Under the pieces are notes generated by a model. That model saw nothing but the letters and a program-made list of their open reading frames with translations. It was not told the origin of the DNA and ran no database searches. Positions 17,097-17,954 of a stretch of DNA of 33,784 nt are shown in pieces; position 1 is the stretch's first letter; every line of letters starts with the position of its first letter. The stretch comes from Desulfurobacteriaceae bacterium (lineage in GTDB: Bacteria; Aquificota; Aquificia; Desulfurobacteriales; Desulfurobacteriaceae). Position numbers and translations under genes: made by a program. The stretch is taken from contig JBDOLX010000064.1 of assembly GCA_039832905.1 (NCBI GenBank), positions 10,792 through 44,575 of the forward strand. Direction: 5' to 3'.

Positions 17097-17954
17097 ATGC
17101 CTGGAATGAGAGAAATAAAAGCTAAGATAAAGAGCTTAAAAGGTACAAAGCGGATTACCGCCGCCATGAAGGCGGTATCCGCCGCTAAACTTCGTAAAGC
17201 TCAAGTAGATCTTTTTAACATCCGCCCTTACGCTGATGTAATGAAAGGAATGGTTGAAGGCCTTTACTTAAGAGAGAACTCTGCTATTCATTCCATCTTC
17301 GCTGTAAGACCTGTAAAGAGAATAGAACTTGTTGTTATTAGCTCCGATAAAGGACTTTGCGGTGCTTTTAATGCCAATATAATCAGGGCTGTTAATAAGT
17401 TTGCCCGCGAAAAAATGGAGCAAGGAATAGAGGTAAGTCTTACTGCTGTTGGAAACAAAGCTTGTCAATTTTTCACTAAATACTCTAAGCTGAAAGTTCG
17501 TAAAGAAATAAAAGACATTTTTAGAAGGATTGGTCTACCTCTTGCAAACGAAATTAGTGAAGATCTTTACTTAGGTTATATATCTGAATACTTTGATGAA
17601 GTTTACCTTGTTTACAACAAGTTTGTTAACGCTCTTACTCAGGAAGTAACTTTTGAAAAGATTTTGCCTCTTTCTATAGATGCTGAAAATGAACCTGTTG
17701 CCGAGTATACAGTTGGTCCTGATGAAAGTGTAGTTGAGGAAGCAGTAAAAGCTTACGTATCTGCAATTGTTCTTAAAGCTCTTAAAGAGTCTGAAACTTC
17801 TGAACATGCAGCACGTATGACTGCTATGGATAATGCTACAAAGAACACGGAAGACCTCATTAAGAAGCTCACAATTTCCTTTAACAAAGCAAGACAAGCC
17901 GCTATTACAAAAGAGCTTATAGAAATTACAACTGCTATTGAAGCAATGAAATAA
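17097..17954 (+). CDS. atpG: ATP synthase F1 subunit gamma
   Basis: Gamma is the single central rotor shaft. The 285 residues show the N-terminal shaft helix [20 protein letters not shown] (4-23), the conserved [14 protein letters not shown] (about 81-94), and the C-terminal helix with [17 protein letters not shown] and [14 protein letters not shown]. The bases coding for residues 18-29 use GC-rich codons (CGG, ACC, GCC, GCC, GCG, TCC, GCC) that form an extended hairpin, listed separately. ATG 17097 follows GTGAGG. Confidence 0.97.
17150..17182 (+). promoter_or_regulatory. Strong coding-region hairpin near the start of atpG
   Basis: GCGGAT-(T)-ACCGCC (17150-17162) pairs with GGCGGT-ATCCGC (17171-17182): twelve pairs, one bulged T, loop GCCATGAA. 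It begins 53 bases into atpG and is made of codons uncommon in the surrounding genes. A stable mRNA structure here could lower initiation or slow early elongation of gamma, which is needed at one third of alpha and beta. The pairing is seen directly; the role is inference. Confidence 0.4.

Follow-up and report, generated by a model that had tools for sequence, protein, structure and literature searches.

A bulged hairpin conserved near the start of atpG in Desulfurobacteriaceae and its possible role in translation

The gene of the F1 gamma subunit, atpG, of a Desulfurobacteriaceae bacterium harbours a hairpin near its 5′ end. Sequence comparison indicates that this hairpin is very probably a selected mRNA structure, kept via synonymous codons across the sampled members of the order. 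It was found in a window of 33,784 nucleotides (the whole stretch of DNA that was analysed), which belongs to a genome of 1,656,383 bases in 120 contigs. As the best explanation overall, we tentatively favour a selected cis-acting hairpin that would most likely act in translation, as an early ribosome pause limiting gamma.

The hairpin and its place in the atp operon

The hairpin is located at positions 17150-17182 and consists of 12 pairs with one bulged U (U17156) and an 8-nt loop. It begins 53 bases downstream of A17097, the first base of the start codon ATG (Table 1). Sequence, coordinates, the 12 bulged pairs and the start 53 bases into the gene all agree with the original prediction. The calculated RNA fold energy was -21.5 kcal/mol for the 33-mer and -22.5 kcal/mol over 45 nt, none of 200 dinucleotide shuffles matched this stability (z -4.6 to -4.7), and the hairpin of the window is predicted to be still folded at 70 °C (-9.5 kcal/mol).

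A scan of 208 kb of the same genome revealed 21 distinct sites at or below -19.5 kcal/mol on either strand, atpG included. The atpG site was the fifth of them, with -22.8 kcal/mol on the opposite strand (sense strand: -22.5 kcal/mol). By eye, several of the other 20 resembled tRNAs or terminators. The initial description of the hairpin as far more stable than anything expected was therefore overstated, while its caution that the energy of a single hairpin is moderate evidence was justified; it is the conservation that makes the case strong.

Table 1. Coordinates of the atpG hairpin, its parts and the neighbouring genes
Feature	Position	Strand	Remarks
5′ arm, GCGGAT-(T)-ACCGCC	17150-17162	+	codons 18-22, T17156 bulged
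5′ arm, pieces	17150-17155; 17156; 17157-17162	+	GCGGAT; bulged T; ACCGCC
Loop, GCCATGAA	17163-17170	+	Ala23, Met24, bases 1-2 of Lys25
3′ arm, GGCGGTATCCGC	17171-17182	+	codons 25-29
3′ arm, pieces	17171-17176; 17177-17182	+	GGCGGT; ATCCGC
Thirteenth outer A-U pair	17149 with 17183	+	via codon 29 GCT, 21/23 loci; the window has A-C, pair absent
Possible second helix around the hairpin	17132-17202	+	GAGCTT 17132-17137 with AAGCTC 17197-17202
atpG, F1 gamma subunit, hairpin host	17097-17954	+	PF00231, E 4.4e-86
Shine-Dalgarno-like GAGGT (17087-17091) and atpG ATG	17087-17099	+	about 50 nt upstream of the hairpin; from sequence
atpA (alpha), upstream neighbour	15573-17081	+	PF00006
atpD (beta), downstream neighbour	17969-19411	+	PF00006

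The genes are ordered as an mnmA-like tRNA-modification gene (identified by Pfam domains), two atpF-type b subunits, atpH, atpA, atpG, atpD, and atpC. An intrinsic terminator at the hairpin was rejected, as no U run follows 17182 and the site was not among the nine terminator-like sites found in 13000-22200. A terminator-like stem with a U run is present at 19832-19857, at the end of atpC. Downstream of atpC, the genes of the ribosomal proteins L13 and S9 are located at 20295-21148, an arrangement seen only in the window and in the stretch of genome G008 among 21 stretches, several of which end soon after atpC.

Conservation and codon choice within the order

AtpG was detected in 21 out of 22 genomes of the family and in 121 out of 136 genomes of the phylum. 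Twenty-three atpG loci of the order were compared, 21 from Desulfurobacteriaceae and two from a sister family (f2). The hairpin was kept in all 23, with -18.6 to -23.4 kcal/mol over 45 nt, including the two loci of the sister family, which show a protein identity of 52-54%. Pairing was not lost in close relatives, a point on which the original prediction had made itself dependent, and it is maintained at all 23 loci through synonymous sites and rare codons.

In 23 of the 24 genomes of the order, a covariance model built on the 23 loci (R1) matched a single place at E<=1, which was atpG each time, with scores of 67.5-81.2 bits; the 24th genome (G012) is also without an AtpG match. A repeated element was rejected on this basis, with the limit that weak extra copies could be missed, because in 23 of the 24 genomes scoring was limited to 150 of the first-look candidates, which were more numerous. 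A mobile or viral origin was rejected as well, since an exact degenerate pattern gave no matches in viral contigs and at least 13 in genome contigs. Among the matches listed, 11 genome contigs were titled Desulfurobacteriaceae, Desulfurobacterium or Thermovibrio, and the remaining two ‘uncultured Desulfurobacterium sp.’ and ‘Aquificota bacterium’; the scan was not exhaustive, as it returned 13 of the 23 carrier genomes and missed the other 10.

The protein segment is highly conserved, and a synonymous-recoding null was used for this reason. Codons 16-30 were recoded 2000 times per genome with each genome's own codon usage, keeping the protein fixed. The fold was more stable than this null in 23/23 genomes (p<=0.001); for L002 and L011, codon usage was derived from about 900 and 1,200 codons, respectively. 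The inner helix was paired in 287 out of 299 cells over the 23 loci, compared with 183.4 (sd 6.4) under synonymous recoding. The cells comprised 271 Watson-Crick pairs, 16 G-U, one A-C, and 11 other mismatches. The number of G-U, far above that of A-C, favours a sense-strand RNA over DNA, with the reservation that the cells are not independent.

The stem codons had been described as unusual, and the open reading frames of the window bear this out, with CGG accounting for 1.4% of the Arg codons, GCC for 9.8% and GCG for 6.1% of the Ala codons, ACC for 15% of the Thr codons, and TCC for 12% of the Ser codons. CGG represents 1-10% of the Arg codons in the genomes of the order, yet it was found in the hairpin at 23/23 loci. 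The third base of codon 18 is G at 23/23 loci, TCC was present at 22/23, GCG at 21/23, and codon 29 is GCT at 21/23. Codons 28 and 19 showed the greatest excess of synonymous identity among the 216 atpG codons scored; codons 28, 26, and 29 rank 1, 5, and 6, and the 12-codon stretch from codon 18 is the highest in synonymous excess (0.35). A second peak of synonymous conservation in atpG, at codons 278-285 (17928-17954, excess 0.33), adjoins the ribosome-binding site of atpD.

Codon changes were counted on a tree of AtpA and AtpD. In the stem, codon 19 changed 0 times, codon 28 once, codons 26 and 29 twice each, codon 25 three times, and codons 21 and 22 four times each. Outside the stem, there were 12 changes at codon 14, nine at codon 17, 12 at codon 23 in the loop, 10 at codon 30, and five at codon 34. 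The varying codons with the third base in or beside the stem are codon 27 (stem, 10 changes) and codon 20 (bulge, five changes). The third base of codon 27 is A, G or T, with T seen only together with ATA at codon 20, and C at 0/23 loci; G-U pairing and a register shift of the bulge can absorb change at these two codons.

Among 707 segments of eight genes compared in 21 genomes, the one with the hairpin was the most structured, with a mean z of -5.88 (all segments: mean z -0.22, sd 0.52). The genes for L13 and S9 were left out of this comparison, because only two genomes had them. Codons 1-15 of atpG were less structured than the codon null (mean z +1.33) and codons 16-30 are the extreme, while the lowest values in atpA and atpD were -1.81 and -1.36, respectively. 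The next lowest segment outside atpG (mean z -3.42 over the 21 genomes) is located at about 13998-14042, at the 3′ end of the mnmA-like gene (13044-14096); apart from atpG, no region of the eight genes was more structured. It precedes the first atpF-type start by about 36-80 nt and its predicted structures vary among genomes; it may be a leader element for the atp operon.

Double changes preserving the pairing were found in five cells, affecting two stem pairs: ACC/GCG to ACT/GCA in L008 and L018, and GCC/AAG to GCT/AAA in L002, L003, and L025. Other stem pairs vary through G-U. The same count of covarying pairs was reached by 91 of 500 shuffles, and the same covariation score and cell count by none of the 500. 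Tree-aware covariation tests were not significant, with few independent events. On the covariation at synonymous sites proposed as a check, pair 22/25 was at rank 114 and pair 21/26 at rank 789 among 13,382 synonymous-site pairs. Within the order, the covariation is modest in amount and consistent with the stem. Genus g3 possesses Ser in place of Ala22, and its upper stem is rebuilt in another register with a changed loop size; its hairpin has -18.6 kcal/mol over the same 45 nt (codon null p=0.0005).

The data also suggest, not firmly, a conserved outer helix around the hairpin. Its 11 pairs were formed in 79.4% of the cells, with 201 pairs over the 23 loci compared with 128.7 (sd 6.2) under synonymous recoding; in L007, L024, and L025 the outer helix was no better than the synonymous-recoding null. 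Codon 33 (17193-17195) is encoded as CGT or CGC in 20 out of 21 Arg rows, even though these codons are uncommon for Arg in these genomes. This choice is compatible with the outer helix or with a transcription pause.

Structures at the same site outside the order

In the first 43 out-of-order loci compared, fold energies for the corresponding 45 nt ranged from -3.2 to -13.1 kcal/mol. The search with R1 in 87 out-of-order loci gave 77 places at E<=10, the best with 40.5 bits, which we take as homologous codons, some with partial stems. Eighteen out of the 43 loci beat the codon null at p<0.05 and seven at p<0.01, with nulls that used small codon tables from the reading frame of atpG itself.

This excess is partly due to another hairpin, present in family f4 at atpG codons 25-30, with 6 bp and a 4-nt loop such as UUCU (33 loci, e.g. 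L043 and L049). Codons 24-31 of these loci beat the codon null at p<0.05 in 18/33 and at p<0.01 in 17/33. At their third bases, codons 26 and 29 form Watson-Crick pairs in 21 out of 27 rows with Ala26, whereas 9.5 were expected by permutation (0/20,000 as high), and codons 25 and 30 do so in 24/33, with 17.3 expected (p 0.0064). Among 12,833 synonymous-site pairs of f4, 26/29 ranked first and 25/30 ranked 61st. Independent tree pairs agreed in 3.7 of 4 cases for 26/29 (sign test p 0.125) and in 2.7 of 3 for 25/30, too few for significance. The six rows with Met26 have G and G as third bases of codons 26 and 29, unpaired. Four loci of family f5 (L063-L066) that were incompatible with the motif search are excluded from these counts.

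The f3 loci beat the codon null at p<0.05 in 5/50 and at p<0.01 in 0/50. A sister-family locus, L026, shares the alpha-gamma-beta gene order and lacks this hairpin, so F1 stoichiometry does not generally require it. We take the f4 hairpin as evidence that selection may have acted repeatedly on hairpins at this site of atpG, or that they were reshaped, which does not prove a shared function.

Possible function and comparison with known systems

According to PMC7282821, the mRNA channel of the bacterial ribosome reaches 11 nt past the first base of the codon in the P site. A count of 11 nt back from 17150 would place codon 15 there as the ribosome arrives at the stem. A ribosome fresh from the start codon would have about codon 15 in its P site on meeting the 12-13-bp bulged stem-loop, and would pause. 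Trailing ribosomes would queue near the start codon and throttle initiation on atpG; with less initiation there than on atpA and atpD of the shared transcript, gamma would be helped towards its share of one per three alpha and three beta. Throttling would depend on the length of the pause, because a hairpin at +53 may leave room for one more initiation. By analogy with known stem-loops, we consider this pause-and-throttle mechanism possible, with some hesitation; a slowing of gamma translation that helps to set the subunit ratio, as put forward in the original prediction, is plausible.

PMC8861025 describes two stem-loops of 11 and 12 bp that hinder the A-site tRNA and slow translocation 15-20 fold. 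In that account, stem length and the presence of a loop count more than stability, one of the stem-loops was about two-fold weaker with an 8-nt loop, and a stem longer by 6 bp no longer hindered A-site binding. The atpG hairpin has the size of such a pausing stem-loop (about 11-12 bp and a loop), with 12 bp in the window and a thirteenth pair at 21/23 loci. Against pausing, its loop is of 8 nt and an outer helix may be present.

Other functions have to be weighed against this one. The hairpin may be an element of mRNA processing or stability, where a nuclease cut (e.g. by RNase III) or a block to an exonuclease would give the atpG segment a lifetime different from that of atpA and atpD. Nonetheless, 12-13 bp is short for RNase III, and a cut inside the reading frame would destroy the gamma message, which makes this function unlikely. 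The stable stem with one bulge and the sense-strand signal are compatible with it, as is, judging by its title in the reference list of PMC11124002, a study of how mRNA segments of the E. coli atp operon are differentially inactivated. The occurrence of one site per genome, always in atpG, and the near fixation of sequence as well as structure across the order would fit a binding site for a regulator, perhaps gamma itself or another RNA-binding protein, with feedback control of atpG. However, we regard this as quite unlikely, given that the free third position in the loop varies (codon 23, 12 changes), that genus g3 shifts register and loop size and f4 uses another hairpin, which is more like a requirement for shape, and that the hairpin matches no Rfam family (0 matches in the window at the gathering score). 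A strong early stem could also keep the initiation site from pairing with downstream sequence, in agreement with the less structured codons 1-15 followed by the extreme at codons 16-30. This reading is improbable, as bacterial start regions are commonly open with no stem of this kind, and no segment of atpA or atpD comes near the value of the hairpin.

A transcription pause signal is very improbable; here the hairpin would form behind the RNA polymerase, at a distance of about 11 nt from a following C/G step, and would hold the enzyme. About 11 nt between hairpin and C/G step is the geometry of pause hairpins, C17193-G17194 is 11 nt after the stem, and codon 33 shows the choice described above; however, this codon is non-Arg in both f2 loci and AGG in L007, where the hairpin is still kept, and the outer helix could account for the same choice. 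Chance, codon bias or a palindrome at the DNA level is highly improbable. Even though a 12-residue protein segment can be encoded as a near palindrome and 20 other sites in the 208 kb reach -19.5 kcal/mol, the protein-fixed codon-usage nulls were beaten in 23/23, and the count of G-U against A-C, in cells that are not independent, favours sense-strand RNA. To programmed -1 frameshifting we give next to no weight. An in-frame heptamer, TTTAAAG or TTTAAAA, is present at codons 13-15, 8 nt before the stem, in L004, L018, L024, and L025, whereas 19/23 loci, including that of the window, are without a slippery heptamer among codons 10-17, and the -1 frame from codon 14 stops at the second codon in 8/23. 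A heptamer of the type X XXY YYZ 5-9 nt upstream is accordingly not conserved (4/23) and is absent from the locus of the window, for which reason plain pausing is preferred over frameshifting. Pairing of the stem with the 530 loop of 16S rRNA was considered and dropped, as ATA variants would break it.

The early ribosome pause can be extended to a broader proposal, which we consider doubtful. A ribosome-gating hairpin in atpG of Aquificota would be kept by shape and not by sequence, with one architecture in Desulfurobacteriaceae and the sister family and another in f4 at the overlapping codons 25-30. It would set gamma below alpha and beta, and would perhaps have shaped the protein at Ala22, a residue that is Lys, Asn or Ser in the sister families read.

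How one polycistronic message gives F1 subunits at 3:3:1 is an old question, for which a hairpin shared by the sampled members of the order, each with a rare Arg codon, in the gene of the single-copy rotor subunit is a concrete and testable element. The hairpin also illustrates that structural selection can act on synonymous sites in a core bioenergetic gene, and in f4 the strongest synonymous covariation of atpG falls at overlapping codons. The literature search, over open-licence papers and limited lists, found no paper describing the atpG hairpin, and the search for atp terms in PMC6544118 and PMC5318159 gave no relevant passage.

Similar to the stem-loops of the dnaX and retroviral frameshift type, as described in PMC7282821 and PMC8861025, the atpG hairpin lies in the reading frame, has 11-12 bp and a loop, and shows a similar predicted stability; bulges are also described there for the dnaX stem-loop. 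Unlike the dnaX type, it has no conserved slippery site, possesses an 8-nt loop, and is a putative pausing stem-loop. The host group also differs in being heat-loving. In the E. coli unc/atp operon, mRNA structure was proposed to set the output of ATP synthase subunits, to judge by the titles of the papers. By the same titles, the E. coli cases concern uncDC, uncH, and atpHA and the coupling of genes, whereas the atpG hairpin lies 53 nt inside a gene and is order-wide. The hairpin of f4 resembles that of the window in gene, overlapping codons and pairing at synonymous sites, and differs in its 6 bp, its 4-nt loop, and the pairing of codon 26 with codon 29 and not with codon 21.
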